This document shows, in pieces, positions 30,071 to 55,286 of a DNA stretch of 55,286 nt. The stretch lies in IMG/VR virus record IMGVR_UViG_3300032316_000894, positions 1-55,286 of that record; one strand, given 5' to 3'. The DNA is from a virus. A program made the position numbers and the translations under genes. The notes under the pieces were generated by a model. That model searched no databases. It was not told the origin of the DNA and saw only the letters and a program-made list of their open reading frames with translations. Each line of letters opens with the position of its first letter. Within the stretch, counting starts at the first letter, position 1.

Positions 30071-30098
30071 AAAGAAGGGTTAAACACCCTTCTTTTTT
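30071..30098. terminator. Bidirectional intrinsic terminator
   Basis: AGAAGGGT/ACCCTTCT stem with A and T runs on the two sides, between converging operons. Confidence 0.75.
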
Positions 30099-33012: not shown

Positions 33013-33013
33013 A

Positions 33014-34681: not shown

Positions 34682-34700
34682 TTGTATCTTTTTAAAAAAA

Positions 34701-37035: not shown

Positions 37036-37109
37036 CGGGATGTAGCGTAGTCAGGTATCGCGCCACGTTTGGGACGTGGAGGCCGTTGGTTCGAATCCAG
37101 CTATCCCGA
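37036..37109 (+). tRNA. tRNA-Pro(TGG)
   Basis: Acceptor CGGGATG/TATCCCG, anticodon stem CCACG/CGTGG with loop TTTGGGA, T-arm GTTGG-TTCGAAT-CCAGC. CCA is not encoded. First tRNA of group 1. Confidence 0.93.
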
Positions 37110-37149
37110 CAAAAGTTTCCTTTATTGGAAATTTTGATTATTATTATAT

Positions 37150-37221
37150 TGCTCTATCGTATAAGGGTTATTACGGTTGACTGTTAATCAATTTATCCAA
37201 GTTCGAATCTTGGTGGAGCAG
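37150..37221 (+). tRNA. tRNA-Asn(GTT)
   Basis: Acceptor TGCTCTA/TGGAGCA, anticodon loop CTGTTAA, T-arm CCAAG-TTCGAAT-CTTGG, discriminator G. Confidence 0.92.
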
Positions 37222-37301
37222 CTGCGGTGGGTGGAAAAATTCCAATGTTGTAGTATCGTGGACGGAGAAATCCTGAAGCATAAACAGACAAAAAGAAAAA
37301 A

Positions 37302-37790
37302 ATGAAGTTAAAAACATTCTTATTGACTGGGATGTTATTGTTAGGAACAATGGCAACCAAAGCACAAGAGACGCAAGTACAGATTGATTCAAATACTAAA
37401 GAAAGTATTACAAAAGAAAGTTTGTATGAGCAGATAATGAAGTACGGGATTAAGTTCCCTGATGTGGTATTCGCACAAGCGGTATTAGAGTCAGGTCAAT
37501 TTACCTCCAAGTTGTTCAAATCGGCAAACAACTTATTCGGTATGAAAATACCAACAAGAAGGGAGTCATCAGCAAATGGTAAAACCAAAAGTGGATACTC
37601 AAGTTATGAAGATTGGAACTTTAGTGTATACGATTACTCTTTATGGCAAAATTTTATGTTAAGAAACAAAAGTGATTTAACAAAAAAAGAGTATCTTGCA
37701 CTCCTTGGTAAGGTTTATGCAGAAGACAAAAGATATGTCAGTAGTTTAAAACGAGTAATCGGTGAACACCAACATATTTTAACACAGTAA
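37302..37790 (+). CDS. Secreted N-acetylglucosaminidase (GH73/FlgJ-like)
   Basis: 162 residues. Signal peptide MKLKTFLLTGMLLLGTMATKA, then a glucosaminidase domain: FPDVVFAQAVLESGQF with the catalytic Glu, NNLFGMK, GYSSYEDWNFSVYDY and a C-terminal YAEDKRYVSSL. These enzymes cut peptidoglycan glycan strands. Because it has its own export signal it could work from the periplasm without a holin, or reshape the wall during infection. It sits inside the first tRNA group, between tRNA-Asn and tRNA-Asp. The stretch 37222-37301 before it shows no gene and no clear motif. Confidence 0.85.
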   Translation: MKLKTFLLTGMLLLGTMATKAQETQVQIDSNTKESITKESLYEQIMKYGIKFPDVVFAQAVLESGQFTSKLFKSANNLFGMKIPTRRESSANGKTKSGYSSYEDWNFSVYDYSLWQNFMLRNKSDLTKKEYLALLGKVYAEDKRYVSSLKRVIGEHQHILTQ

Positions 37791-37819
37791 AAAGTTTGGG
37801 GTGAAACTCCCCATAATTT

Positions 37820-37892
37820 GGTCCCGTGGTTGAATGGTTACAATTCCACCCTGTCACGGTGCGAGATACGGGTTCGAATCCCGTCGGGACCG
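37820..37892 (+). tRNA. tRNA-Asp(GTC)
   Basis: Acceptor GGTCCCG/CGGGACC, anticodon loop CTGTCAC, T-arm ACGGG-TTCGAAT-CCCGT, discriminator G. The outermost anticodon-stem pair is a C-C mismatch. Confidence 0.9.
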
Positions 37893-37953
37893 CAAAGAGG
37901 AGTATATGTGTAGTAACCTCAGGTGTGATATCCGCCACTACACTCCATTTTAA

Positions 37954-38029
37954 GCGGTAGTAGCTCAGTTGGTAGAGCTCGTTCCTTCCAAGTACGAGGT
38001 CGCAGGTTCGAACCCTGTCTACCGCTCCA
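37954..38029 (+). tRNA. tRNA-Gly(TCC), CCA encoded
   Basis: Acceptor GCGGTAG/CTACCGC, D-stem GCTC/GAGC, anticodon loop CTTCCAA, T-arm GCAGG-TTCGAAC-CCTGT, discriminator T, then CCA (38027-38029). Confidence 0.92.
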
Positions 38030-38076
38030 AGGGTAGTGGGAACCCAAGAGTATGTGATGAGCATACACCCACAAAT

Positions 38077-38149
38077 GCCTCCATAGCTCAGTTGGTAGAG
38101 CAGCTGATTTGTAATCAGCAGGTCGTTGGTTCGAGTCCGACTGGAGGCT
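38077..38149 (+). tRNA. tRNA-Thr(TGT)
   Basis: Acceptor GCCTCCA/TGGAGGC, anticodon stem CTGAT/ATCAG with loop TTTGTAA, T-loop TTCGAGT. Confidence 0.94.
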
Positions 38150-38156
38150 CACATAA

Positions 38157-38228
38157 GGGGATTTAGCTGAGTTGGTTTAGCACCGCCCTTGCACGGCGGG
38201 GACAAGAGTTCGAGTCTCTTATTCTCCA
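38157..38228 (+). tRNA. tRNA-Ala(TGC)
   Basis: Anticodon stem CCGCC/GGCGG with loop CTTGCAC, T-arm AAGAG-TTCGAGT-CTCTT, acceptor GGGGATT/ATTCTCC with one mismatch, discriminator A. Last of group 1. Confidence 0.9.
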
Positions 38229-38242
38229 CAAACAAATAAACG

Positions 38243-38596
38243 ATGGCACATCCAAACTTACATGCAAAATCATCCGCCAAAAAGTTTGGTGGGAAACCTG
38301 AGGACTACATTCATTTACACGAATGGTTAGATGAAACCAAAGGATGGTTTGGGGATTCACTTCATAGAATGTTCAGACATCATAGTGAAGGAATCTTTGA
38401 AATGGAAAAACGATTTGGTACTGAATTCAAAAACAGTGACGGAGATACCGTTTACACAAGATATATCGGAGAACAACATATAAAAGAGGATTGTAATAAC
38501 TACATTCCGTCAGCCAAAGAATGGGTAAATAACATATCAACAAATCAACGACCTCAGTGGATGTTGAAAACAATGAAATTAGAATTCACTGATTGA
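38243..38596 (+). CDS. DUF6915-like protein
   Basis: 117 residues. MAHPNLHAKSSAKKFGGKPE, then a HEWLDETK segment, HRMFRHHSEGIFEMEK, NSDG and RYIGEQHIKED match a family of unknown function found in many bacteria (DUF6915). The many conserved His and Glu residues suggest a metal site. It begins 14 nt after tRNA-Ala and is therefore on the same transcript as tRNA group 1. Confidence 0.75.
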   Translation: MAHPNLHAKSSAKKFGGKPEDYIHLHEWLDETKGWFGDSLHRMFRHHSEGIFEMEKRFGTEFKNSDGDTVYTRYIGEQHIKEDCNNYIPSAKEWVNNISTNQRPQWMLKTMKLEFTD

Positions 38597-38603
38597 TATT
38601 TAT
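38597..38603 (+). promoter_or_regulatory. TATTTAT late-type promoter motif
   Basis: 4 nt before the ATG at 38608. Confidence 0.6.
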
Positions 38604-38607
38604 TATT

Positions 38608-39321
38608 ATGAAAGAACTTTTAACACCAGAAGAAAAACAATATTTAAGAAGAGTTGCAAATTACCTTGGTTCATTGGGAATGCAAGATGGTAATATTGAA
38701 ATTGACATAGATAACGGATGGACATTTAGTTATGATGATATTAATTGGGATTATGTGTCTCATTTTGCTAATAACTATAATGCGGATATTCCATCAGGAT
38801 TAATACCAATACTTCAAAAAATCATGAAATATTGTGATGATGAGGGGTTAATTAAAGAACATGACGATGATATTAATTATCAGAGATTAGAGTACGACAT
38901 TGATGTAAAGGCAAAACAAATTATCTTCTCTCATTGGTGGTCATATTACGATAGAGGTGATGGAAGTTCAATCGAATACGATTCTGAAGAAGATATTGAA
39001 AGATTTAATAGTTGGATGGAACTTTATTTTTCCGATGTCGAAATTCCTAATGATGGTATTTTAACTGTAACCTATAATGGGTCAGGAGATTCGGGTTATA
39101 TGGAAGACTCATTTGATGAAAACGGTAGCCAAGTTCCTGCAGGAATTGAGGACTGGTGTTACGGAGAATTATCAAGAAATTTTGGAGGATGGGAAATTAA
39201 TGAAGGGTCCGACGGTAACTTTATATTTGACTTCAACACAAAAATAGTTAAATTAAATCATACAGAGAACATTGAAGAAAACGCAAGTGATACTTACTTT
39301 GAGCAGAGCTTCGCAAATTAA
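38608..39321 (+). CDS. Unknown acidic protein with GSGDSG motif
   Basis: 237 residues. N-terminus MKELLTPEEKQYLRRVANYL, helical and somewhat like the packaged-type starts but without a clear (L/I)xE-Q site. The middle has a HWWSYYDRGDGSS segment. The C-terminal part has VTYNGSGDSGYMED, then WCYGELSRNFGGWEINEGSDG, a strand-turn pattern seen in uncharacterised bacterial domains. Function unknown. Start set by the promoter motif. Confidence 0.62.
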   Translation: MKELLTPEEKQYLRRVANYLGSLGMQDGNIEIDIDNGWTFSYDDINWDYVSHFANNYNADIPSGLIPILQKIMKYCDDEGLIKEHDDDINYQRLEYDIDVKAKQIIFSHWWSYYDRGDGSSIEYDSEEDIERFNSWMELYFSDVEIPNDGILTVTYNGSGDSGYMEDSFDENGSQVPAGIEDWCYGELSRNFGGWEINEGSDGNFIFDFNTKIVKLNHTENIEENASDTYFEQSFAN

Positions 39322-39325
39322 GACA

Positions 39326-39332
39326 TATTTAT
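39326..39332 (+). promoter_or_regulatory. TATTTAT promoter motif of leader 2
   Basis: 5 nt before the leader-peptide ATG at 39338. Confidence 0.55.
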
Positions 39333-39337
39333 AAAAC

Positions 39338-39406
39338 ATGAGAACAACATTATTACATACGTTATTACTTGATAGACAAGGTCTATTAAGAAGACTTATG
39401 CCGTAA
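39338..39406 (+). CDS. Leader peptide 2 (22 aa) before the Leu-Arg-Leu tRNA group
   Basis: Of 22 residues 8 are Leu (5 TTA, 2 CTT, 1 CTA) and 4 are Arg, all AGA. The tRNAs after it are Leu(TAA), Arg(TCT) and Leu(TAG), the readers of TTA, AGA and CTN. Runs such as TTLLHTLLLD and GLLRRLM resemble classical leucine-operon leaders. Three nucleotides after the stop, GTTCAG (39410-39415) is complementary to CTGAAC in the following terminator (39443-39448). Confidence 0.65.
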   Translation: MRTTLLHTLLLDRQGLLRRLMP

Positions 39407-39409
39407 TTT

Positions 39410-39470
39410 GTTCAGAGCCGTTCTATTTATAGATATTCAACCCTGAACCAAAAAAGTTCGGGGTTTTTTT
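39410..39470 (+). promoter_or_regulatory. Attenuator 2: antiterminator pairing and terminator
   Basis: GTTCAG (39410-39415) against CTGAAC (39443-39448) competes with the stem CCCTGAAC (39441-39448)/GTTCGGGG (39456-39463). A ribosome at the leader stop would cover GTTCAG and favour termination. A TATCTTTG promoter lies beyond this terminator, so the tRNAs behind also have their own start site. Confidence 0.6.
39441..39470 (+). terminator. Terminator 2
   Basis: CCCTGAAC/GTTCGGGG stem followed by T7. Confidence 0.8.
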
Positions 39471-39493
39471 ATGACTTTTTCAGAGATATTCAC

Positions 39494-39501
39494 TATCTTT
39501 G
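39494..39501 (+). promoter_or_regulatory. TATCTTTG host-type promoter for tRNA group 2
   Basis: Ends 9 nt before tRNA-Leu(TAA). Confidence 0.65.
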
Positions 39502-39510
39502 TAAAATAAC

Positions 39511-39595
39511 GCCGAGGTGGTGTAATGGTAGCCACGAGGGACTTAAAATCCCTTGGTCAGTAACGACCGTGAGGGTTCGAGTCCCTCCCTCGGTA
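39511..39595 (+). tRNA. tRNA-Leu(TAA)
   Basis: Class II tRNA: acceptor GCCGAGG/CCTCGGT, anticodon stem AGGGA/TCCCT with loop CTTAAAA, long variable arm, T-arm GAGGG-TTCGAGT-CCCTC. Confidence 0.93.
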
Positions 39596-39602
39596 CAAAA
39601 TT

Positions 39603-39676
39603 GGTTTGGTAGCTCAGCTGGATAGAGCAACGCACTTCTAATGCGTAGGTCATAGGTTCGAATCCTATCCGAATCA
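39603..39676 (+). tRNA. tRNA-Arg(TCT)
   Basis: Acceptor GGTTTGG/CCGAATC, anticodon stem ACGCA/TGCGT with loop CTTCTAA, T-arm ATAGG-TTCGAAT-CCTAT. Confidence 0.93.
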
Positions 39677-39679
39677 CAA

Positions 39680-39771
39680 TCATTATCGTAGCTCAGTGAG
39701 ATACGGCGCAAGATACACACTTAAACAACGCGGGAGAGGCGCCTTTCCCGATGTGGCTGAAGCGATAATGA
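39680..39771 (+). ncRNA. tRNA-like structured RNA lacking a T-arm
   Basis: A perfect 9-bp closing stem TCATTATCG (39680-39688)/CGATAATGA (39763-39771), with TAGCTCAG directly after its 5' strand as in a tRNA D-arm. Inside are GGCGC/GCGCC and CGGGA/TCCCG pairings. No TTCGA loop. It lies between tRNA-Arg and tRNA-Leu(TAG) and would be co-transcribed. Either a decayed tRNA kept for its stem or a distinct RNA. Confidence 0.6.
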
Positions 39772-39776
39772 TATTT

Positions 39777-39857
39777 ACCCCGATGGCGTAATGGTAGCCG
39801 CGCAAGTCTTAGGAACTTGTGACTTCGGTCGTATCGGTTCGAGTCCGATTTGGGGTA
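39777..39857 (+). tRNA. tRNA-Leu(TAG)
   Basis: Class II tRNA: acceptor ACCCCGA/TTGGGGT, anticodon stem CAAGT/ACTTG with loop CTTAGGA, T-arm ATCGG-TTCGAGT-CCGAT. Confidence 0.92.
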
Positions 39858-39871
39858 CAAGAAAGTAAATT

Positions 39872-40591
39872 ATGTACGTACAAAATCCTTTAGTTAAAAC
39901 TAGTCAACCGAATTTATTTCATTTGGCTCCAATTCCCGTATTCATGAAAGTTTTCGGTGACGATGAATTCCATGATGAGGTATACACGTTTGGGTTTGAG
40001 AATCTAACTCCCCAACAAAAGTTAATGGGTCAGGAACTTCCTGAACAATACGACATTAACAGACAATCAAATTATTCTGTGAATTACGATAAGAGAGAAA
40101 TGTGGGTGGAACCTACAGAGTATAATCCTATTGGTAGTCGTTTTTGGACACCGCCTAACGACTTTCTTGACATCAACAATGAGAACGTTAAGAAGATTAG
40201 ACAAAGGGTTGAGAGTGGTTATATGGAGTTATTAGACATGTTAGGGTTCCAACACAATAGAAAACCTGATATTACCGAGAGCTGGATTCAATATTATAAC
40301 CCAACTGAAGGTAGAGGTCATAATGCTCACAATCACTGTAGATGGCAACCAAATGAGGAAACAATGTTAAACTTCTCAGGAGGTTACTACCTATCTGACG
40401 GTGACCCGATTGCCGACCATCCTTATAGTGGAGTTTTTACATTCCATATTAGAGGGATGTCTCACTTTATCAGACCTAAAAAGGGTATGTTAATCATTTG
40501 GCCGTATGATATCGTACATTCGGTTAAACCATTCTACGGTAAGACACACAGATGTGTGATTAATTTTAATATTCAAGACGGAGTTAAATAA
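39872..40591 (+). CDS. 2OG-Fe(II) oxygenase-like protein
   Basis: 239 residues. The first half (FHLAPIPVFMKVF and a GSRFWTPP segment) is not catalytic. In the second half HNAHNHCRW supplies candidate iron ligands, FHIRG and KKGMLIIWPYDIVHSVKPF give the distal His, and THRCVINFN the Arg that binds 2-oxoglutarate. This resembles phage and bacterial oxygenases of the putative 2OG-Fe(II) type. Its TAA overlaps the next ATG by one base, and that gene is another oxygenase. Lies on the transcript of tRNA group 2. Confidence 0.75.
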   Translation: MYVQNPLVKTSQPNLFHLAPIPVFMKVFGDDEFHDEVYTFGFENLTPQQKLMGQELPEQYDINRQSNYSVNYDKREMWVEPTEYNPIGSRFWTPPNDFLDINNENVKKIRQRVESGYMELLDMLGFQHNRKPDITESWIQYYNPTEGRGHNAHNHCRWQPNEETMLNFSGGYYLSDGDPIADHPYSGVFTFHIRGMSHFIRPKKGMLIIWPYDIVHSVKPFYGKTHRCVINFNIQDGVK

Positions 40592-41169
40592 TGAAACAGA
40601 TTGACTTAGATATTTTTGTATTTCCAAAAATCATGACTGATGAACTTATTGAAAGACTAATGTCGGTTAGAAATAAGAGCGGTTTTGATGGAAGATTAGA
40701 TTTACATATTGAGGATAAAAACACATTTTATATTTTTGATAATTTTTGGTTTTCTGAAATTGAATCCAAATATTTGGGACATTATTTTAGTACGTATGAT
40801 GTTGAAAAAGGAATAGGATTAAATTCAAGTGAGGAGACTATAAAACAATTAAGTAAATTTGTTGAAACAAAATGGAGAGATTTATTCTTACTTCATTATA
40901 CACCTAATAGTTTAATTAACGGTGAAAAAGATATTCATTGGGATTTTAGTGGGTTAAGTATGGTTGGATGTTTAACTGATGATTATGAAGGAGGTAAACT
41001 AATTTTTCCTAGACAGAATGTTACTTACAGATTAGAAAAAGGGGATGTTATCGTGTTTCCAGGAGGTTTAACTCACCCACACTATGTGGAACCCGTAACT
41101 AAAGGTTTTAGGGATGTAATTGTTGGTCAAAGTATGACATTACCTCAAGACCATAAAATTGATTATTAA
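40591..41169 (+). CDS. 2OG-Fe(II) oxygenase
   Basis: 192 residues. KDIHWDFSGLSMVG has the His-x-Asp pair, VIVFPGGLTHPHYVEP the distal His, and KGFRDVIVGQ the Arg. EGGKLIFPRQ between them is typical. The two adjacent oxygenases are diverged, so they may hydroxylate different positions. Substrate unknown. Confidence 0.83.
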   Translation: MKQIDLDIFVFPKIMTDELIERLMSVRNKSGFDGRLDLHIEDKNTFYIFDNFWFSEIESKYLGHYFSTYDVEKGIGLNSSEETIKQLSKFVETKWRDLFLLHYTPNSLINGEKDIHWDFSGLSMVGCLTDDYEGGKLIFPRQNVTYRLEKGDVIVFPGGLTHPHYVEPVTKGFRDVIVGQSMTLPQDHKIDY

Positions 41170-41198
41170 AAATAATTTGACAACTCAGAGATTTTTAC

Positions 41199-41206
41199 TA
41201 TCTTTG
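41199..41206 (+). promoter_or_regulatory. TATCTTTG host-type promoter of leader 3, with -33 TTTG
   Basis: TATC-TTTG with TTTG at 41176-41179, 19 nt upstream, matching the Bacteroidota two-box promoter. It ends 18 nt before the leader ATG at 41225. Confidence 0.7.
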
Positions 41207-41224
41207 AACTATATATTAGAAATA

Positions 41225-41326
41225 ATGAAAACTACAATAAAACATATGGTCTTTAGTACACAGCAAAAATCGATTTGTTGGTATGAGCGTATGCGCGATT
41301 GTAGTTCGGATATAATTTTTGAGTAA
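41225..41326 (+). CDS. Leader peptide 3 (33 aa) before the large tRNA group
   Basis: The 33 residues contain every amino acid served by the 13 tRNAs behind it: Glu, Val, Phe, Lys, Cys, Trp, Tyr, Met, Gln, Arg, Ile, His and Ser. Only Thr (3) and Asp (2), both in group 1, fall outside. Leu, Gly, Ala, Pro and Asn are absent. Both Arg codons are CGT/CGC, the codons of the group's Arg(ACG), whereas leader 2 uses AGA. GTTCGG (41304-41309) in the tail can pair with CCGAAC of the terminator and, as in leader 1, ends 14 nt before the stop. Confidence 0.65.
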   Translation: MKTTIKHMVFSTQQKSICWYERMRDCSSDIIFE

Positions 41327-41394
41327 TTTTTTAAAATAAAAATAAACCAAATTTTTTATATACCCCGAACTCGTAAAAAGGTTCGGGGTTTTTT
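41304..41394 (+). promoter_or_regulatory. Attenuator 3: antiterminator pairing and terminator
   Basis: AGTTCGG (41303-41309) pairs with CCGAACT (41365-41371), competing with CCCCGAAC (41363-41370)/GTTCGGGG (41381-41388). Compared with attenuators 1 and 2 (GTTCAG/CTGAAC) both partners changed together, A to G and T to C. Confidence 0.65.
41363..41394 (+). terminator. Terminator 3
   Basis: CCCCGAAC/GTTCGGGG stem with a 10-nt loop, then T6. Confidence 0.82.
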
Positions 41395-41430
41395 GTTTTA
41401 AAATTGTTAGGTTCTTTGAAATATTGGTTG

Positions 41431-41438
41431 TAATTTTG
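41431..41438 (+). promoter_or_regulatory. TAATTTTG promoter candidate for tRNA group 3
   Basis: Fits TAnnTTTG, 14 nt before tRNA-Glu; no well-spaced upstream TTTG box, so weaker than the others. Confidence 0.4.
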
Positions 41439-41452
41439 TACTTGATTTAAAC

Positions 41453-41526
41453 GTCGCGTTGGACAAATTGGTTAAGTCGTCACCCTTTCACGGTGAAGAT
41501 TACGGGTTCGAACCCCGTACGCGATA
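41453..41526 (+). tRNA. tRNA-Glu(TTC)
   Basis: Acceptor GTCGCGT/ACGCGAT, anticodon stem TCACC/GGTGA with loop CTTTCAC, T-arm ACGGG-TTCGAAC-CCCGT. Confidence 0.93.
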
Positions 41527-41536
41527 CATAATTTAC

Positions 41537-41608
41537 AGTTCCTTAGCTCAGTGGAAGAGTCCTTGCCTTACATGCAAGTAGTCGTAGGTTCGAATCCTAC
41601 AGGAACTA
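41537..41608 (+). tRNA. tRNA-Val(TAC)
   Basis: Acceptor AGTTCCT/AGGAACT, anticodon stem CTTGC/GCAAG with loop CTTACAT, T-arm GTAGG-TTCGAAT-CCTAC. Confidence 0.93.
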
Positions 41609-41613
41609 CATTA

Positions 41614-41686
41614 GGTGACGTAGCTCAGTTGGTAGAGCACTTGCCTGAAGAGCAAGGTGTCGTCAGTTCGATTCTGACCGTTACCA
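41614..41686 (+). tRNA. tRNA-Phe(GAA)
   Basis: Acceptor GGTGACG/CGTTACC, anticodon stem CTTGC/GCAAG with loop CTGAAGA, T-arm GTCAG-TTCGATT-CTGAC. Confidence 0.93.
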
Positions 41687-41687
41687 C

Positions 41688-41758
41688 GGAGTCCCGAATT
41701 AACGGGAAACCCCCACTCCCATATGGCAGCCAGTCCGTTAAGCTGGTGAAGTGGGGTA
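41688..41758 (+). ncRNA. Structured spacer RNA between tRNA-Phe and tRNA-Lys
   Basis: Hairpin TCCCG (41692-41696)/CGGGA (41703-41707), then a 7-bp stem CCCCACT (41711-41717)/AGTGGGG (41750-41756) enclosing a small hairpin with CCAG/CTGG. No tRNA features. No plausible reading frame longer than 8 codons. Confidence 0.5.
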
Positions 41759-41761
41759 TTT

Positions 41762-41835
41762 GACCTCTTAGCTCAGTTGGCTAGAGCACTTCACTTTTAA
41801 TGAAGGAGTCCCGAGTTCGAGTCTCGGAGGGGTCA
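41762..41835 (+). tRNA. tRNA-Lys(TTT)
   Basis: Acceptor GACCTCT/AGGGGTC, anticodon stem CTTCA/TGAAG with loop CTTTTAA, T-arm CCGAG-TTCGAGT-CTCGG. Confidence 0.94.
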
Positions 41836-41850
41836 CTAAAAAATAATAAG

Positions 41851-42474
41851 ATGATAGATAACATAAACATAATAAAACCGTTATTAAACTTCGAGGAGAA
41901 GGGAGACTTCTATATGTTGTATGTCTTCAAACGTAAGAAAGACCAACCTGAAGGTGAGAGAGATAATCACCAATCGGTTAGAACTATCAAAACATATTGC
42001 ATTGAATCAATTGACCATTTGGAAAGGAGATATGATGAGGTAAAACAACTATGTGAGATGTTCAAGGCAAGAGCTTACATTCATGTTCAGAAACAAAACC
42101 ACAGAGATGTGTCTTTGGATATGTTGGCGAGTTTAGCTGAGAGAATTAAGAATGGAGTTCAAAACCAAAAGGGGTTATTTGATTCGGTTGTTGGACAGAT
42201 TAAGACTCAGGAGAAAAGATGGATTATTGATATTGATAACGTATCAATGGATGGATTCAATCATGACCCATACCAAGTATCGTTGAGAGAATATATAAAC
42301 GAGTTACAGAAAGAGGCAGGAAAAGACCAAGGAATGACTTTTATTAAGACAAGAAGTGGATTCCATATCATAACTCAACCTTTTAATGTGATAAAATTTA
42401 AAGAAAGATATCCCGAGGTTGATATCCAAAAAAAGAACCCAACATTATTATATTATCCCAATAATTTGGGTTAA
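41851..42474 (+). CDS. Unknown protein inside the tRNA group
   Basis: 207 residues from the ATG at 41851 (MIDNINIIKPLLNFEEKGDF); longer in-frame starts would lie inside tRNA-Lys. The C-terminal half reads RWIIDIDNV, GMTFIKTRSGFHIITQPFN and ends in a Tyr/Pro/Asn stretch. The Asp-x-Asp strand followed by a Gly-Phe-His strand recalls primase-polymerase or other palm-like folds, but the match is weak and I do not assign it. Co-transcribed with tRNA group 3. Confidence 0.6.
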   Translation: MIDNINIIKPLLNFEEKGDFYMLYVFKRKKDQPEGERDNHQSVRTIKTYCIESIDHLERRYDEVKQLCEMFKARAYIHVQKQNHRDVSLDMLASLAERIKNGVQNQKGLFDSVVGQIKTQEKRWIIDIDNVSMDGFNHDPYQVSLREYINELQKEAGKDQGMTFIKTRSGFHIITQPFNVIKFKERYPEVDIQKKNPTLLYYPNNLG

Positions 42475-42489
42475 ATTTGTAAAACAAAG

Positions 42490-42561
42490 GGTCGGTTGGC
42501 CGAGTGGTTTAGGCGGTAGTCTGCAAAACTATCTACACAGGTTCGATTCCTGTACCGACCT
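42490..42561 (+). tRNA. tRNA-Cys(GCA)
   Basis: Acceptor GGTCGGT/ACCGACC, anticodon stem TAGT/ACTA with loop CTGCAAA, T-loop TTCGATT, discriminator T. Confidence 0.92.
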
Positions 42562-42562
42562 C

Positions 42563-42682
42563 ATGACAAAGAAAGAAATTAACAAAATGGTTAAAGCCAT
42601 TAGAATGACAACAAAAAAAGCTTGTAAGAATAAGAAATCTGCTCGTAAGTTTCTTATTAAGGCAGGAATTGTAAAAAAATAA
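42563..42682 (+). CDS. Small lysine-rich protein (39 aa)
   Basis: 39 residues, 15 of them Lys or Arg, starting MTKKEINKMVKAIRMTTKK. It begins 1 nt after tRNA-Cys and ends 1 nt before tRNA-Trp. A basic helical protein this small could bind RNA or DNA. The tight fit between two tRNAs argues that it is a real gene that is released by tRNA processing. Confidence 0.6.
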   Translation: MTKKEINKMVKAIRMTTKKACKNKKSARKFLIKAGIVKK

Positions 42683-42683
42683 T

Positions 42684-42756
42684 ACGTGTGTAGCTCAGAC
42701 GGTAGAGCAGTAGTCTCCAAAACTATGTGTCAGAGGTTCGAATCCTTTCATGCGTG
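42684..42756 (+). tRNA. tRNA-Trp(CCA)
   Basis: Acceptor ACGTGTG/CATGCGT, anticodon stem TAGT/ACTA with loop CTCCAAA, T-arm AGAGG-TTCGAAT-CCTTT, discriminator G. Confidence 0.92.
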
Positions 42757-42761
42757 CTAAA

Positions 42762-42881
42762 GGTTGATTGGAAAGCCTTACACCTTCTCTAAGGAGTTGG
42801 AATGTAAGCGAGGGGACTGAATGAAGTCAAAGAAATGCCAATCATAAAAGTAGATGTCCACGCACCCATCTTCTACTTTCC
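42762..42881 (+). ncRNA. Structured RNA, tandem copy 1
   Basis: Begins GGTTGATTGG; TGATTGG (42765-42771) pairs with CCAATCA (42838-42844), enclosing CTTACA/TGTAAG. A 3' hairpin follows: AAAGTAGATG (42847-42856) with CATCTTCTACTTT (42867-42879). No tRNA features. A second copy with the same frame follows at 42893. The 3' part holds a 16-codon ORF, which copy 2 does not keep. Confidence 0.6.
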
Positions 42882-42892
42882 TTAAAATATTA

Positions 42893-43018
42893 GGTTGATT
42901 GGGGAATGGTGATGTGAAATACCTGGTAGTGGTTGGAATAAGACATCGTCGGAGTTTAAACTACCATAGTAATGCCAATCATAAAAGGAGATGTCCACTG
43001 AACCATCTTCTCCTTTCC
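42893..43018 (+). ncRNA. Structured RNA, tandem copy 2
   Basis: Same ends as copy 1 (GGTTGATTGG; CCAATCA at 42975-42981), same 3' hairpin with a compensatory pair change: AAAGGAGATG (42984-42993) with CATCTTCTCCTTT (43004-43016). The inner part differs in sequence but again pairs (GATGT/ACATC, TGGTAGT/ACTACCA). Confidence 0.6.
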
Positions 43019-43024
43019 TTACTT

Positions 43025-43106
43025 GGGAGTATCGCATAGCGGCAATTGCAGAAGACTGTAAATCTTCCCTCTTTAGAGTTCGTAGGTTCGAGTCCTACTA
43101 CTCCCA
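43025..43106 (+). tRNA. tRNA-Tyr(GTA)
   Basis: Class II tRNA: acceptor GGGAGTA/TACTCCC, anticodon stem GAAGA/TCTTC with loop CTGTAAA, T-arm GTAGG-TTCGAGT-CCTAC. Confidence 0.94.
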
Positions 43107-43112
43107 CATTTT

Positions 43113-43186
43113 GGACTTGTAGCTCAGTTGGTTAGAGCACTTCACTCATAATGAATAGGTCCCTGGTTCGAGCCCAGGCTGGTCCA
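43113..43186 (+). tRNA. tRNA with CAT anticodon (Met, or Ile read by lysidine) 1
   Basis: Anticodon stem TTCA/TGAA with loop CTCATAA, T-arm CCTGG-TTCGAGC-CCAGG, acceptor GGACTTG/CTGGTCC with one mismatch. Two CAT tRNAs are present; which is Met and which is Ile(k2C) cannot be settled here. Confidence 0.88.
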
Positions 43187-43192
43187 CAATAT

Positions 43193-43263
43193 TGCCCGAT
43201 GGTGTAGCGGTAGCACAAATGTTTTTGGTGCATTTAGGGTTGGTTCGAATCCAGCTCGGGTAA
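43193..43263 (+). tRNA. tRNA-Gln(TTG)
   Basis: Acceptor TGCCCGA/TCGGGTA, anticodon stem AATGT/GCATT with loop TTTTGGT, T-arm GTTGG-TTCGAAT-CCAGC. Confidence 0.9.
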
Positions 43264-43272
43264 CTAAATAAA

Positions 43273-43350
43273 ATGGAAAAAAATATGTGGTTTTTATTAG
43301 TATGGGTTATTTTGATGATTATTGTCAAATGGGACAATGACCGTGATTAG
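43273..43350 (+). CDS. Microprotein, single membrane helix (25 aa)
   Basis: MEKNMWFLLVWVILMIIVKW followed by a short Asp-rich tail. It fills the spacer between tRNA-Gln and tRNA-Arg(ACG) exactly, ending on the base before the tRNA. One hydrophobic helix of about 17 residues. Possibly a small membrane-acting peptide; function unknown. Confidence 0.6.
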   Translation: MEKNMWFLLVWVILMIIVKWDNDRD

Positions 43351-43422
43351 GGTTTTATGGTGTAACGGATAGCACACGAAACTACGGATTTCGGAGTTTA
43401 GGTTCGAATCCTAATAGAACCT
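43351..43422 (+). tRNA. tRNA-Arg(ACG)
   Basis: Acceptor GGTTTTA/TAGAACC, anticodon stem CGAAA/TTTCG with loop CTACGGA, T-arm TTAGG-TTCGAAT-CCTAA. Confidence 0.92.
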
Positions 43423-43428
43423 CTAAAC

Positions 43429-43498
43429 TGCGTGGCTTAGAGGAAAAGAACTATCTCTCATAAGGATGGTCAATTGGGTTCGAAACCCAAACACGCAA
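43429..43498 (+). tRNA. tRNA with CAT anticodon 2 (Met or Ile)
   Basis: Anticodon loop CTCATAA on a stem with two G-T pairs, T-arm TTGGG-TTCGAAA-CCCAA, acceptor TGCGTGG/ACACGCA with a mismatch at the last pair. A slightly irregular tRNA. Confidence 0.82.
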
Positions 43499-43504
43499 CA
43501 TATG

Positions 43505-43577
43505 GTGGCTATAGCTCAGTTGGCAGAGCGCTTGGTTGTGGTCCAAGTTGTCACGGGTTCGATTCCCGTTAGTTACC
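43505..43577 (+). tRNA. tRNA-His(GTG)
   Basis: Acceptor GTGGCTA/TAGTTAC with an extra G at 43504 facing discriminator C, the His identity pair; anticodon stem CTTGG/CCAAG with loop TTGTGGT; T-loop TTCGATT. Confidence 0.93.
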
Positions 43578-43579
43578 CA

Positions 43580-43706
43580 AAGTGTTTACAACGGACAAGG
43601 CTTAGGCAAGTGAGTTGAGAATGAGTAGTAGGAGATTTAATCGTTTGGACTACAGAAAGTTTGATACAATAGATTGGTGGGATGCGAGTGGTTGACCAAA
43701 ACACTT
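43580..43706 (+). ncRNA. Stem-enclosed spacer RNA with possible microprotein
   Basis: 8-bp closing stem AAGTGTTT (43580-43587)/AAACACTT (43699-43706) with inner CAAC/GTTG and GTAGT/ACTAC pairings. The spacer also contains the frame 43621-43695, so structure and coding may coexist. Confidence 0.4.
43621..43695 (+). CDS. Possible microprotein (24 aa)
   Basis: MSSRRFNRLDYRKFDTIDWW followed by four residues. Basic N-terminal half and a Trp-Trp pair. Lies between tRNA-His and tRNA-Ser(TGA), like the microproteins at 42563 and 43273. No promoter of its own. Confidence 0.4.
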   Translation: MSSRRFNRLDYRKFDTIDWWDASG

Positions 43707-43711
43707 ATTAC

Positions 43712-43797
43712 GGAAGGATGGCAGAGTTGGTCTATCGCGCTTGACTTGAAATCAAGTGTACTGCAAGGTACCGTGGGTTCGAATCCTACTCCTTCCG
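43712..43797 (+). tRNA. tRNA-Ser(TGA)
   Basis: Class II tRNA: acceptor GGAAGGA/TCCTTCC, anticodon stem CTTGA/TCAAG with loop CTTGAAA, long variable arm, T-arm GTGGG-TTCGAAT-CCTAC, discriminator G. Last of group 3. Confidence 0.94.
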
Positions 43798-43818
43798 CAA
43801 TTTTTTACCCATATTGAC

Positions 43819-43825
43819 TATTTAT
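43819..43825 (+). promoter_or_regulatory. TATTTAT late-type promoter motif
   Basis: 4 nt before the ATG at 43830. Confidence 0.6.
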
Positions 43826-43829
43826 TAGT

Positions 43830-44279
43830 ATGGAAAAAGTAACATTAACAAAAGAGCAACTATTCAAGGTAATGCATTTGAATGAGCAGGAAAATAAGAC
43901 TGAAATTAAAGGTAACTCAGGATTTAAGAATATGGTGTCAACACTATTACATTCTCAAACTCAGGTACACATCTTTCATTTACAGACTAAGTCATATTCT
44001 GAACATAAAGCATTACAAGGATACTATGAAGGTATTGATGCATTAGTGGACGGTATTATCGAAAGTTATCAAGGTAAGTACGATGTTATTAAAAATTATG
44101 ATTCAGTTAAAACTGAGGACTACAAGAGTTCTGAACAAGTAATTAATTATTTCAAATCATTAGATACTATGATTGAGAAAGCTAGAAAAGGAGTTAAAGA
44201 ATCGTTTATTCAAAACCAAATTGATACGGTTCAGGAATTAATATTCTCCACAGTGTATAAGTTAAGATTCTTAAAATAA
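43830..44279 (+). CDS. Unknown helical protein with packaged-type N-terminus
   Basis: 149 residues. MEKVTLTKEQLFKVMHLNEQ ends in the (L/I)xE-Q site and parallels LTESDLIRLVKKVILTEQ of the 52016 protein. The remainder is helical with a region HFQLQ-like segment resembling a small four-helix protein (THTFHLQTKSYSEHKA-type ferritin-like pattern: IFHLQTKSYSEHKAL, YYEGIDALVDGIIESYQG). The His and Glu spacing recalls Dps/ferritin-like helices, but this is tentative. It has its own late-type promoter and a terminator. Confidence 0.62.
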   Translation: MEKVTLTKEQLFKVMHLNEQENKTEIKGNSGFKNMVSTLLHSQTQVHIFHLQTKSYSEHKALQGYYEGIDALVDGIIESYQGKYDVIKNYDSVKTEDYKSSEQVINYFKSLDTMIEKARKGVKESFIQNQIDTVQELIFSTVYKLRFLK

Positions 44280-44302
44280 TATACTGTTTAAGTTTAATAT
44301 TG

Positions 44303-44338
44303 AATTCCTCTAATTAAAAGTTAGGGGAATTTTTTTTA
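44303..44338 (+). terminator. Intrinsic terminator
   Basis: AATTCCTCTAA/TTAGGGGAATT stem followed by T7. Confidence 0.82.
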
Positions 44339-44352
44339 TGGCACAAAATGAT

Positions 44353-44360
44353 TATCTTTG
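44353..44360 (+). promoter_or_regulatory. TATCTTTG host-type promoter for tRNA group 4
   Basis: Ends 9 nt before tRNA-Ile. Confidence 0.65.
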
Positions 44361-44369
44361 TACAAATAA

Positions 44370-44443
44370 TGGAATATAGCTCAATTGGTTAGAGCGTCCG
44401 CCTGATACGCGGGAGGTTGATGGTTCGAGTCCATCTATTCCAA
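44370..44443 (+). tRNA. tRNA-Ile(GAT)
   Basis: Acceptor TGGAATA/TATTCCA, D-stem GCTC/GAGC, anticodon stem CCGC/GCGG with loop CTGATAC, T-arm GATGG-TTCGAGT-CCATC. Confidence 0.94.
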
Positions 44444-44445
44444 CA

Positions 44446-44781
44446 ATGGAAAATGAAATTAAAAAGAAAACTGGCAATAGAGCCAAGTTTAAGAAAATTG
44501 TAAAAGAGTATAAAGAAGCAACCAATAAAGAGATTTGGGAAGGAGTTAGAGATAATTTTACTTTTGGGTTTATTGGTGCAACTATTGTTGTGTTTATAGC
44601 AACAAGAGCGGATTTTGCGGTGTTATTAGGTTATCTAGCATATTACTTTTTTATGGGTAAGATAGTTAACCGTCCCAAATATGTAACAGATTTGGGACGA
44701 ATGATAGTTTTCCCAATACCATCAGCATTAGGTGCATTTGCGGGGTATAAATTATCTTATTACCTTTTACAACTATTATAA
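44446..44781 (+). CDS. Small membrane protein between tRNA-Ile and tRNA-Ser
   Basis: 111 residues. A basic cytoplasmic N-terminus (MENEIKKKTGNRAKFKKIV), then three hydrophobic segments at about 41-60, 63-76 and 87-108. Starts 2 nt after the tRNA. No family recognised. Confidence 0.62.
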   Translation: MENEIKKKTGNRAKFKKIVKEYKEATNKEIWEGVRDNFTFGFIGATIVVFIATRADFAVLLGYLAYYFFMGKIVNRPKYVTDLGRMIVFPIPSALGAFAGYKLSYYLLQLL

Positions 44782-44787
44782 AGTAAT

Positions 44788-44873
44788 GGAAAGTTACCCA
44801 AGTTGGTGAAGGGGCTTGTTTGCTAAACAAGTAGGGTGTAACAGCCGCGAGGGTTCGAGCCCCTCACTTTCCG
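44788..44873 (+). tRNA. tRNA-Ser(GCT)
   Basis: Class II tRNA: acceptor GGAAAGT/ACTTTCC, anticodon stem CTTGT/ACAAG with loop TTGCTAA, T-arm GAGGG-TTCGAGC-CCCTC, discriminator G. Confidence 0.93.
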
Positions 44874-44919
44874 CAGAAAAAAATGTTCGAAAAGTTGACA
44901 TAATCGATTAACCTTCGTA

Positions 44920-51483: not shown

Positions 51484-51513
51484 TAAAAAAAGGGACCACA
51501 AATTGGGTCCCTT
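51484..51513 (-). terminator. tmRNA terminator
   Basis: AGGGACC/GGTCCCT stem 4 nt beyond the tmRNA 3' end, then T7 on the minus strand. Confidence 0.85.
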
Positions 51514-51516
51514 ATT

Positions 51517-51913
51517 TGGTGGAGATGGAGGGATTCGAACCCTCGTCTTGTTTACGAATAACGTAAGTGACTACACGTTTATTATAACATTGGTTCTCAA
51601 TGTTCCAAAATATCAGGTTTGATGTATGTGAGAACCCTACCTGCAAACAACTTGGTCTTAGAGTTATTTTAAACGAGCTCTAACCTGTCACCCGTATGTC
51701 GGACTTCTGTTCCTGGGTGTATGTCCTAACCGACCCGAGTGTTGTTCCCTATCTTAGATAGTAACAACAGCTTCTTCTCTAGTTAAACCTAAAGCAGAAA
51801 GCTTAGCAAAAGTATTGCCATTTAATTGTTTTAAACCAGTTGATAACGGAGTTAATTCAGCTCCGACGTGCCACCTAAGCAATTACATACCAATCAATTG
51901 CCGTGTCATCCCC
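51517..51913 (-). ncRNA. ssrA: tmRNA (ssrA) with atypical tag
   Basis: 397 nt. The 5' GGGGATG (51913-51907) pairs with 3' CATCTCC, followed by an encoded ACCA end; the T-arm is GAGGG-TTCGAAT-CCCTC. Between them lies the mRNA part. A resume codon GGC at 51819-51817 follows AAAT and opens a 21-codon tag (starts G-N-T-F-A-K, ends E-E-A-V-V-T-I) closing at TAA 51756-51754, within hairpin CTATC-TAA-GATAG as in other tmRNAs. Downstream paired segments (GTTAGAG/CTCTAA, GGTTCTCA/TGAGAACC) could form pseudoknots. The unit has its own TATCTTTG promoter and terminator. The tag is twice the usual length and lacks the usual LAA end. Confidence 0.88.
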
Positions 51914-51954: not shown

Positions 51955-51962
51955 CAAAGATA
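51955..51962 (-). promoter_or_regulatory. TATCTTTG host-type promoter of tmRNA
   Basis: Minus strand, about 41 nt upstream of the mature 5' end; followed by GTAC. Confidence 0.65.
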
Positions 51963-51994
51963 AGGATAAATATGTATAATCCAAACAGAAAAGA

Positions 51995-52015: not shown

Positions 52016-53158
52016 ATGAGGGTAATAAAATTAACGGAATCGGACCTTATACGTTTGGTGAAGAAAGTCATTTTAACGGAACAGACAGATGAGGTCGAAA
52101 ATGATGGTAATACGTTACTTGCACTCAGAAATTTCTCAAAAGGTAAACTTACAACAAATGATTTATATGGGATGGATAACACCATTGAAGATATTCGTGT
52201 TAGAAATCCATTGGGTCAGTCATTAATTACCATTAAATTAGGTGAAAAAGAAAATTTTTTAGAAGAAATTGGTTTAAGTACTGATGATGCGTGGTTTAGA
52301 GATGTTGTAATGTCATCTTATGGTAGTGGGTATGAATTTACCGATAGTTACACCATGAATGAGGACTTCAATGAAGGATATATTTTTGAATACGACTTGA
52401 ATGAAGAAAATACCCAAACCCTTAAAGGAATTGCGGGAAGACTGATACCTAATGAAGAAGTTAATCTCGATGACGACGAATATAGAAAAAAATTACATGG
52501 ATTAATGTCAGATATTTTCCCAAGAGAAATTGATTATATTATTAGTGACTACTCAATAGAAAAAGACAATGAGATGAATCAAGTAGCTAAAGAATCTATT
52601 AAAGAAGAGTTTGACGATAAGTTAGATGAGATGGGTATCGACCTTAGTTATGATATGGATGAAGCCACAATTACTTTAGCCGATTTATTCTCAGAAGCTT
52701 TGCAATTAAACCTATTTAATTCAAGTGCCCAAGAAATGGTTACCAAAATCATTTCAAATAAATTAGGTAGTAATGTAGGTGGTTGGTATGAAAATAATTA
52801 CGAATATAGAGACCAAAATAAGTTTGACACAGAATCATTCAATAGAACCGTTGAAAATCAATTTGAAAAAATAATAGAAAAGATGGATGAGGATAGTGAT
52901 TCTGAATACACCATTAAAGATTATATTGAATTTAGAGCTCGAGTTTTAAATAAATTTAAAATGAAAACATGGTACGAAACCCCTAAAGACAAGGATATCA
53001 TATTCTCAATTAAAGACTTTCAACCCGAGAATATGACAATTATATTAACAGTTAAAGATAGAGGAACTCAAGTACTTAAAGATATTAAGTTGGATGAAGA
53101 AAATTTTAAACAATTTTTATACCAACCTTCATTATTTAAGTTGGAAGATATGTATTAA
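52016..53158 (+). CDS. Unknown acidic protein with the clearest packaged-type N-terminus
   Basis: 380 residues. MRVIKLTESDLIRLVKKVIL leads directly to TEQ, so a T4-type protease would cut after residue 22. The mature part is acidic and alpha/beta (NEEVNLDDDEYRKKL, DELGIDLSYD-like segments), without recognised motifs. Probably an internal head protein; function unknown. Confidence 0.65.
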   Translation: MRVIKLTESDLIRLVKKVILTEQTDEVENDGNTLLALRNFSKGKLTTNDLYGMDNTIEDIRVRNPLGQSLITIKLGEKENFLEEIGLSTDDAWFRDVVMSSYGSGYEFTDSYTMNEDFNEGYIFEYDLNEENTQTLKGIAGRLIPNEEVNLDDDEYRKKLHGLMSDIFPREIDYIISDYSIEKDNEMNQVAKESIKEEFDDKLDEMGIDLSYDMDEATITLADLFSEALQLNLFNSSAQEMVTKIISNKLGSNVGGWYENNYEYRDQNKFDTESFNRTVENQFEKIIEKMDEDSDSEYTIKDYIEFRARVLNKFKMKTWYETPKDKDIIFSIKDFQPENMTIILTVKDRGTQVLKDIKLDEENFKQFLYQPSLFKLEDMY

Positions 53159-53175: not shown

Positions 53176-54018
53176 ATGACACAAAATATAGACTTACTAA
53201 AGGAAGTACTTAGCGTTCCAAGTAAAACATACAAAGAAGACCTTATGGTCGAATTCTTGGTTAATTGGTTAACCGAGAATAATATCGAACACTATGTAGA
53301 CGAGCATAACAACGTTTATGCAACGAAACAAGAAACAACTGAATTACCAGAAGATTTTCATTTTCCATGTGTGATAGCTCACACTGATACTGTACACGAG
53401 TTGGATACCATCCTTGTTCGTGAAGAACAATTACCTAATGCTCAAGGACAGGTTAAAGATGCACTAAAAGCGTATAACCAACACGGAATGCCAACAGGAA
53501 TTGGTGGTGATGATAAATGTGGTGTATTCGCCTGTTTAACATTACTTAAAGAATTACCGTACTTAAAAGCATCATTTTTTGTTTCAGAAGAAACAGGATG
53601 TCATGGTTCAAAAAAGGCGGACGAATCATTCTTTGAGAATGTAGGTTATGGAATTCAATTTGACGCACCTGAAAACTGGATGATTACTGAAAAATGTTTT
53701 GGGCAAGTACTATTTGATAGGAACACTGAATTTTTTGAAAAAATTGATAAAATATTAACAGAAGGTATGGTTAATGAAGATATGCAATACATGGTTCACC
53801 CATATACCGATGTTTACGCTTTAAGAAACAAATTTGATTTCTCTTGTATTAACTTCTCAATCGGATATTACGATTATCATACAAAAAATGAGTATGTTGT
53901 AATTGAAGACGTTTTTAACGGAATTGAAATGGGTAGAAAAATGATTTCAGAATTAGGGTACAAGTTACACTACAAGGAATCTGTAAAATATGACCCAATG
54001 CAAAGATACATTAGATAA
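53176..54018 (+). CDS. M20/M28-type zinc peptidase or deacylase
   Basis: 280 residues. Zinc-site motifs in order: IAHTDTVHE (His, Asp), GIGGDDKCGVFACL (bridging Asp), FFVSEETGCHGS (Glu-Glu, base and ligand) and, near the end, FSIGYYDYHTKNEYV (distal His). This matches di-zinc PepT/M20-type hydrolases without a large dimerisation insert. It could cut peptides, N-acyl amino acids or wall fragments. A host-type promoter with a 4-nt spacer suggests early synthesis. It converges with the next gene by 8 nt. Confidence 0.83.
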   Translation: MTQNIDLLKEVLSVPSKTYKEDLMVEFLVNWLTENNIEHYVDEHNNVYATKQETTELPEDFHFPCVIAHTDTVHELDTILVREEQLPNAQGQVKDALKAYNQHGMPTGIGGDDKCGVFACLTLLKELPYLKASFFVSEETGCHGSKKADESFFENVGYGIQFDAPENWMITEKCFGQVLFDRNTEFFEKIDKILTEGMVNEDMQYMVHPYTDVYALRNKFDFSCINFSIGYYDYHTKNEYVVIEDVFNGIEMGRKMISELGYKLHYKESVKYDPMQRYIR

Positions 54019-54679
54019 AATCCTCTAACTTATCGATATGACGTTTAACCATCGGGTGGTCTTGAATATCTTCATATTCGGCCCCCGATTTTTTTATTTG
54101 TTTAATACCGTTAATAATTTGGGCCAAATGACCTCTAATCATTCCTGACATAGATGGATAGTTCTGAATGTAGAGAGATAATGAAAATAATCTTGATGCA
54201 ACATCAATCGGTATACCCAACTTAATTACAATTTTGGCAACCATATTTTTAGCAAATTGGTCTGCATCTAATTCCATTTCCCAGTATTGGTCTGCAAGAT
54301 TTTCAAAATCTTCTAAGTCAAATTCGGTTAATGGGTTTGGCATTTTGATATCACGAATTTGATATTCATGTCTAATTTCATGAAAAACGGTATATAGGAA
54401 ATCTCCGATAGTTGTCATTTGTGATGGAGCACAAATTATAACTTGGTCTTTAGTTCTAACACCTGCAAACCCAGCATAACAAGAGTTTAAGAATTTAATC
54501 TTGATATTATTTTTTTTAATGTAGTCAGAAACAAACTTACCAATTACAGGTACTTTAGATTGTAGATTGTCAGGGAATTGATACTTAAATTGACCCATAA
54601 GTCTATCAAGATTTGACTGAGGAATTTGCTCATCATCCTTAACTGACTCTCTAACTATCTGTCTAATCAAATCTTTCAT
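54011..54679 (-). CDS. Zinc metalloprotease (HEIRH) with packaged-type N-terminus
   Basis: 222 residues from the ATG at 54679 (MKDLIRQIVRESVKDDEQ); VRE is a possible (L/I/V)xE-type site. The zinc motif is TVFHEIRHEYQIRD at about residues 122-135, followed about 30 residues later by EMELDADQFA with the likely third ligand. The C-terminal third is helical. TATTTAT ends 4 nt before the start. With the HELEH protein at 13134 it forms a second packaged-type protease candidate. Confidence 0.75.
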   Translation of the reverse strand: MKDLIRQIVRESVKDDEQIPQSNLDRLMGQFKYQFPDNLQSKVPVIGKFVSDYIKKNNIKIKFLNSCYAGFAGVRTKDQVIICAPSQMTTIGDFLYTVFHEIRHEYQIRDIKMPNPLTEFDLEDFENLADQYWEMELDADQFAKNMVAKIVIKLGIPIDVASRLFSLSLYIQNYPSMSGMIRGHLAQIINGIKQIKKSGAEYEDIQDHPMVKRHIDKLEDFI

Positions 54680-54683
54680 ACTT

Positions 54684-54690
54684 ATAAATA
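54684..54690 (-). promoter_or_regulatory. TATTTAT late-type promoter motif
   Basis: 4 nt before the ATG at 54679. Confidence 0.6.
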
Positions 54691-54693
54691 CAA

Positions 54694-54722
54694 AAAAAGG
54701 GGGAAATAAATCCCCCTTCTTA
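54694..54722 (-). terminator. Intrinsic terminator
   Basis: AAGGGGGAT/ATTTCCCCCTT-type stem after the Clp gene stop, with T run on the minus strand. Confidence 0.8.
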
Positions 54723-55286
54723 TTATCGTCCTTTTTTCTGAACTTTAACCTCTTCGTTCTCAACTTTGATGGTGTAGGTTTTACCCTCAATCATCTTACC
54801 TGTTAGAACTTCTTCAGATAACAAATCCTCAACTTTGTCTTGGATTGCTCTCTTAAGTGGTCTTGCTCCGTACATATCGTCGAATCCAATTTTAGCTAAA
54901 TAATCAACTAAAGTATCATCGAAGTTTATAGTGTACTTCATGTCCTTAAGACGTTTACCTAATTTCGCCAATTCAATCACAGTGATTTTCTTGATGTCCT
55001 CAGGAGTTAATGAGTTGAATACAATCGTATCGTCGATACGGTTGATAAATTCAGGTGAGAAGAATTTCTTCATCTCTTTCATTAACACTTCTTTTTTGGC
55101 CTCCTCGTTAGCGTAAGGACTGTTTGAGAAACCGATACCTGTACCAAAGTCTTGTAACTTCTTCACACCCAAGTTTGAAGTTAAGATGATTAAGGTATTC
55201 TTGAAGTTAATCTTTCTACCTAAACTATCTGTAACGTGACCGTCATCCAAGATTTGAAGTAAGATGGTAAACACATCTTTGTGAGC
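54723..55286 (-). CDS. ClpA/B/C-type AAA+ unfoldase, C-terminal part (runs off the right edge)
   Basis: 187 codons visible, open to the right edge. The visible part starts in the second AAA+ module: AHKDVFTILLQILDDGHVTD, GRKINFKNTLIILTSNLG (sensor 1 region), FSPEFINRIDDTIVF (arginine finger region), then GARPLKRAIQDKVEDLL (sensor 2). This is the conserved C-terminus of ClpC/ClpA/ClpB. Whether it carries a ClpP-binding loop cannot be seen here. A ClpP gene is at 30080-30760, so a phage Clp machine is plausible. Confidence 0.92.
   Translation of the reverse strand, partial: AHKDVFTILLQILDDGHVTDSLGRKINFKNTLIILTSNLGVKKLQDFGTGIGFSNSPYANEEAKKEVLMKEMKKFFSPEFINRIDDTIVFNSLTPEDIKKITVIELAKLGKRLKDMKYTINFDDTLVDYLAKIGFDDMYGARPLKRAIQDKVEDLLSEEVLTGKMIEGKTYTIKVENEEVKVQKKGR

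Follow-up and report, generated by a model that had tools for sequence, protein, structure and literature searches.

Phage-encoded trans-translation RNAs (tmRNAs), which release stalled ribosomes and label the incomplete protein, are known from cluster C mycobacteriophages, Bacillus phage G and Melnitz, and the tmRNA of mycobacteriophage Bxz1 may also have a long tag. In huge phages, tmRNAs and SmpB have been reported (PMC7162821), and a 2025 tmRNA database contains 79 phage sequences and gives 10 aa as the commonest tag length (PMC11915505). Phage tmRNAs have mostly been remarked on and then left without explanation. Here we analyze a stretch of viral DNA of 55,286 nucleotides (IMG/VR record IMGVR_UViG_3300032316_000894, hereafter the window), a fragment of a large phage that likewise encodes such an RNA. 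Its relatives form a family with tags of 21–22 residues, about twice the usual length. A literature search of open-access papers gave no description of this family, nor any other phage tmRNA family with this tag or with synteny to ClpC, and the family is apparently undescribed.

A one-piece tmRNA in the window

The minus strand at 51517–51913 encodes a genuine one-piece tmRNA (ssrA). Its full-length match to Rfam RF00023 (model positions 1–374, 84.4 bits, E = 2.3e-31) exceeds the gathering score of 47 bits and coincides exactly with the interval for which a first-pass annotation had proposed a phage tmRNA, leaving its strand unstated. ARAGORN made no call at 51517–51913. The tRNA-like domain is complete: the acceptor stem (GGGGAUG/CAUCUCC) with G3.U70, the T-arm GAGGGTTCGAATCCCTC and an encoded CCA can be read from the sequence, and together with the promoter and terminator given below they bear out the list of parts in that annotation. 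In 37 aligned relatives, compensatory changes occur in 31 of 40 consensus pairs, and G3.U70 is kept in all 37.

The mRNA-like domain comprises a resume codon, a tag frame and a stop, the reading frame being under selection. A predicted pseudoknot, PK1 (51832–51865, minus strand; CGGAG/CUCCG and UGAAUUA/UGGUUUA), lies 5′ of the resume codon and ends 12 nt before its GGC. Inspection by eye showed two alternative sequence types of PK1 in the relatives, each able to form both stems. The tag stop falls in the loop of a hairpin (51740–51768, minus strand; CTATC-TAA-GATAG and GTTGTT/AACAAC), as had been claimed.

A promoter of the form TTTG-N19-TATCTTTG is located at 51955–51985 (minus strand), and the motif is found 5′ of 54 of 65 family tmRNAs, where shuffled sequences would give 0.68. 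Since we take this promoter type to be that of Bacteroidota, the hosts of these phages are probably Bacteroidota; a direct host link for phages with this tmRNA was not found. An intrinsic terminator follows at 51485–51511 (minus strand), with a GGGACC/GGTCCC stem and then T7. Elsewhere in the window are an array of 23 tRNAs that covers nearly all amino acids (37036–44874) and, on the plus strand, a PPK2-type polyphosphate kinase-like protein (9060–10151).

A long tag peptide under selection

The tag frame (51754–51819, minus strand) starts with GGC at 51819–51817, runs for 21 codons encoding GNTFAKLSALGLTREEAVVTI and stops at TAA 51756–51754. With 21 residues and the C-terminal sequence VVTI, the peptide differs from the canonical SsrA degron, which is short (commonest length 10 aa) and ends in ALAA or VAA. 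Relatives were collected by a codon-level tag search of viral contigs and then, as a second set, via ClpC. Because the search pattern of the first set fixed tag residues 1–11, unbiased support comes from residues 12–21 and from the second set. That set was assembled through ClpC, independently of the tag, and its tags were identified by a permissive motif once all three frames had been inspected.

All 86 distinct phage relatives have an open frame of 21–22 codons in the same place. These RNAs encode 53 unique tags (21 aa in 71 RNAs, 22 aa in 15) with the core G-N-x-h-x-K-L/M-x-x-h-G-L-x-x-x-E-x-x-V-x-V-A, where h is a hydrophobic residue. Diversity in the tag frame is highest at third codon positions (0.447 versus 0.276 and 0.233). 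Among 24 unique core sequences, every frame has 21 codons, and Leu10 and Leu12 are written with three and four different codons, respectively; the stop is swapped among TAA, TGA and TAG. Since the 86 relatives share the tag pattern with synonymous changes and swapped stops, the GGC frame giving GNTFAKLSALGLTREEAVVTI is the right frame, in agreement with the first-pass annotation, and the pattern of substitution indicates that selection acts on the tag peptide. A standard tag in another frame had been named as a finding that would overturn this reading; the GCA frame (AILLLSFLL) and the TGG frame (WQYFC) show weaker conservation, and almost every relative has stop codons in both.

The first-pass annotation had seen the novelty in the tag end. 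It was right that the end is not of the ALAA type. However, the last residue of the 53 unique tags is Ala in 49, Ile in three and Ser in one, the Ala-type ends, mostly VxA, include VVAA, VAVA and VVGA, and the internal core is better kept among relatives than the end. Since the family normally ends in Ala and only three tag variants, all of the window's own tag type, end in Thr-Ile, the Thr-Ile end matters less than was thought and is rather a mark of that type. The novelty lies in the family, with its long tags and fixed synteny.

Looser tag patterns retrieved no further true member with the same core from the same viral collection. Three pattern matches (L013, L074 and L075) were rejected as not being tmRNAs. 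Across about 85,000 cellular genomes, the pattern of the first half of the tag gave six matches, with no tmRNA among them, and the tag pattern thus appears to be phage-specific. A tblastn search with the 21-aa tag against named phages returned nothing, a weak result because a query this short may be filtered out. Of the 86 family members, ARAGORN recognises only 16 and gives a truncated tag for at least two of these, so such tmRNA genes are being missed.

An N-domain-less ClpC, ClpP and candidate partner proteins

The first-pass annotation had placed a ClpP at 30080 and a ClpA/B/C-like protein at 54723, and both are real. The latter is the 3′ part of a phage ClpC (54723–55286, minus strand; AAA_2 and ClpB_D2-small), cut by the window end. 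Full-length relatives have two AAA+ modules, a UVR-like M-domain and a ClpP-docking loop, the last as IGF, VGF or LGF in 76 of the 78 phage ClpCs examined. Full-length ClpC is 670 aa in the relative L010, where it lacks the N-domain, and in alignments with S. aureus ClpC the full-length phage ClpCs match only from its residue 148 onward; a search for Clp_N in them found none, and the first Walker A is preceded by no more than 77 residues. The S. aureus F436 position is Tyr in all but one of the phage ClpCs matched there, and the M-domain keeps the equivalents of R443 and D444. E-value limits were relaxed for the ClpC and ClpP alignments for display only. In S. aureus, a ClpC that combines loss of the N-domain with M-domain mutations degrades GFP-SsrA free of adaptors, and one with the same deletion but an intact M-domain does not (PMC5699869). 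Since N-domain deletion alone is insufficient in S. aureus, the activity of the phage ClpC is not safely predictable.

The phage ClpP (30080–30760, minus strand) matches Pfam CLP_protease (1.2e-57) and NCBIfam ClpP (3.2e-69, under the equivalog cut-off), and its alignment to PDB 1y7o places it in the fold family with conserved Ser-His-Asp positions. Two adjacent Nol-like carbamoyltransferases are encoded nearby, at 31396–34726 (minus strand). Overall, phage ClpP lies 11–27 kb further along. It occurs in 12 of 22 records of the first set, always on the tmRNA strand 11–26 kb downstream, and in 15 of 25 of the second; the 10 first-set contigs that lack ClpP extend no further than ~21 kb from the tmRNA, and G186 of the second set has no ClpP within the 30 kb of its remaining contig. 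SmpB was found in five IMG/VR records and three published huge phages and is missing from most records. In four records (G186, G205, G206 and G227), two of which are near-identical, SmpB and the tmRNA are less than 1 kb apart. As the records are fragments, absence of SmpB or ClpP is weak evidence.

UVR proteins, McsA among them, act as regulators of ClpC. The relative L010 encodes a double-UVR protein at 14833–15270, a candidate ClpC regulator that is McsA-like in motif only. A small double-UVR protein encoded divergently from ClpC is found in 33 of 73 loci from the best 80 of at least 540 phage ClpC loci (none in shuffles), a count made with a loosened motif pattern and so tuned to the L010 protein.

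The tmRNA borders a conserved set of genes

In 21 of the 22 tag-bearing records a ClpC-type gene shares the tmRNA strand at a distance of ~3 kb, and the remaining record starts too near the tmRNA to show one. In the reciprocal search, a tmRNA is present downstream in 64 of 80 phage ClpC loci, a figure that describes close ClpC relatives since these loci are the best 80 of at least 540. In all of these 64 the two genes share a strand, and the spacing is 1982–5648 bases (median 2668). Fourteen of the 16 loci that lack a tmRNA have less than 3 kb of contig left; the other two are L217, with 3.3 kb, and L204, where no tmRNA was found in 5.6 kb downstream of ClpC and loss is possible. More distant phage ClpCs need not be accompanied by a tmRNA: LR745206 and LR756502 have ClpC and ClpP and no tmRNA over the cut-off.

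Within these 64 of the best 80 loci, an M20-like peptidase lies between ClpC and the tmRNA in all 64. In the window it is encoded at 53176–54018 (plus strand) and is a weak, PepT/dipeptidase-like match (phrog_4191 peptidase, 2.8e-31; Pfam M20, 1e-4, under the cut-off). A 380-aa protein with no Pfam or PHROG family match and no assigned function (52016–53158, plus strand) has a homologue, likewise between ClpC and the tmRNA, in 58–59 of the 64, and a putative metalloprotein with a HEIRH motif (54011–54790, minus strand) recurs in 24–26. Beyond ClpC, two genes of no known function are kept in 52 of 52 loci from the same best 80, and genes past the tmRNA are poorly kept (3–7 of 33). Since conservation is confined to the ClpC side, the tmRNA marks one border of the conserved genes, and as those beyond ClpC are conserved too, linkage alone is weak to modest evidence of joint function.

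Apparent exchange of tag segments

In the ClpC tree, tag types are clustered yet not congruent, and the idea of one tag type for each ClpC as a strict rule was rejected. ClpCs with ~95% identity occur with very different tags, which argues against fine matching between ClpC and tag. In three pairs picked after the tree was seen, L166 and L190 are alike in the 5′ (90%) and 3′ (93%) parts but not in the tag (56%); L165 and L168 are alike in the tag (95%) but not in the body (43–69%); and in L161 and L210, whose ClpCs are 68% identical, the tag is the same. Tag segments thus appear to move between tmRNA bodies.

Discussion

We consider phage-run trans-translation that feeds phage ClpCP to be the best explanation of this locus, with a probability of about 0.6. 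The sequence comparisons establish what the RNA is, its frame, the selection on its peptide, and the synteny and architecture of the genes; charging, SmpB use, tagging in vivo and recognition and degradation by phage ClpCP are what we infer. The gene would yield a working tmRNA that is charged with alanine via G3.U70 and enters, together with SmpB, ribosomes stalled on broken or non-stop mRNA, the SmpB probably being the host's in most such phages and the phage's own in some. Ala and GNTFAKLSALGLTREEAVVTI would be appended to the unfinished protein, and the long tag would be a phage-specific degron. By way of the conserved core, the product is probably taken into the pore of the N-domain-less ClpC acting with phage ClpP, an engagement that may need no host adaptor, and the M20-like peptidase would break the resulting peptides down to amino acids. 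Because the tmRNA sits beside the phage's stripped-down ClpC, the arrangement suggests a line of protein disposal run by the phages themselves, and this synteny and the phage ClpP likewise point to the link with the phage's own Clp machinery that the first-pass annotation had raised. The precedent of the S. aureus ClpC mutant and the Tyr at the F436 position speak for this model; the inactivity of N-domain-deleted S. aureus ClpC with an intact M-domain, given that the phage ClpC retains the R443 and D444 equivalents, the departure of the window's Thr-Ile end from the Ala end and the lack of ClpP in the remaining 30 kb of G186 speak against it. We would give even odds to the broader proposal that large Bacteroidota phages possess a full phage-run pathway of trans-translation and proteolysis, made up of a tmRNA with a 21–22-residue degron, sometimes SmpB, N-domain-less ClpC and ClpP, the double-UVR candidate regulator and the peptidase, with the degron as an exchangeable cassette in the RNA.

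A less probable, still serious alternative is that ribosome rescue is the purpose, that host ClpXP, FtsH or Tsp read the tag, and that the phage Clp proteins serve otherwise, for example in host takeover or virion assembly. The Ala end of 49 of 53 tags resembles that of ordinary tags, tag type is independent of ClpC phylogeny, and Clp genes are general in large phages, as in LR745206 and LR756502. Host disposal does not account for the fixed ClpC synteny, however, nor for a length and core kept in 86 of 86 relatives: the host tags that could be read have ~9 aa, so recognition by the host does not call for such a length and core.

It is rather improbable that rescue occurs without destruction, the long tag marking or protecting products (localisation, capture or stabilisation) and the Thr-Ile end abolishing recognition in the window's subgroup. 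Three tag variants do end in Thr-Ile, and the core is more conserved than the end. However, the window's tag end is still hydrophobic, and ClpX reads MuA, which ends in KKAI (PMC8138137); relatives keep Ala, and the neighbours are ClpC and a peptidase. Escape of products from proteases, which the first-pass annotation had also considered, is not favoured because the last residue is still small or hydrophobic. A decoy titrating host SmpB or ribosomes, the role proposed for the TLD-only tmRNA reported in mycobacteriophage DS6A (PMC4131195, PMC11915505), is very improbable for an RNA with a complete mRNA-like domain, selected frame, predicted pseudoknot and stop hairpin, some relatives of which bring their own SmpB. 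A non-functional degraded copy acquired from a host, to which the 84 bits versus about 105–200 for most Bacteroidota genes found might point, appears already refuted by the covariation (31 of 40 pairs), the kept promoter and the coding frame in all relatives.

Since RNA, peptide and linked unfoldase are conserved as a set across many phages, the purpose of a tmRNA in a phage can now be put to a direct test. A long degron and a naturally N-domain-less ClpC could also serve as an orthogonal degradation tool.

Bacteroidota host tmRNAs resemble the phage RNA in being one-piece and in their Gly resume codon. Readable host tags, such as GENNYALAA, are of the GxxNYALAA type and start in the same kind of resume context as the phage tag (for example, ATAAAT followed by GG), in a survey that is not a census because about half of the sampled loci were left unparsed. 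The host tag has 9 aa and ends in ALAA, whereas the phage tag has 21–22 aa and another core.

The 636-kb huge phage LR756504 has a long-tag tmRNA too, read here as DNVNSFEQSILNELFAPVEMAVAA, and also encodes SmpB, ClpP and ClpC; unlike in the present family, its tag has 24 aa and another core, and its ClpC is non-adjacent. The tmRNA of a 484-kb phage (LR756508, 92434–92880) has a GGC frame that may run for 36 codons, GVNNADYESAGFTAEDFAQMDGESLYHGSERKPAAV. The phage ClpC belongs to the fold family of the Firmicute ClpC of S. aureus (6em8), with which it shares AAA1, a UVR-like M-domain and AAA2, but naturally lacks the equivalents of residues 1–147 and has Tyr for F436. The Mesoplasma florum ssrA tag, of unusual length and sequence, is read by the organism's own Lon (PMC8138137). 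By description, this pairing of an unusual tag with a protease other than ClpXP is like the one proposed here, the Mesoplasma florum system being cellular and using Lon, whereas ClpCP would act in the phage.
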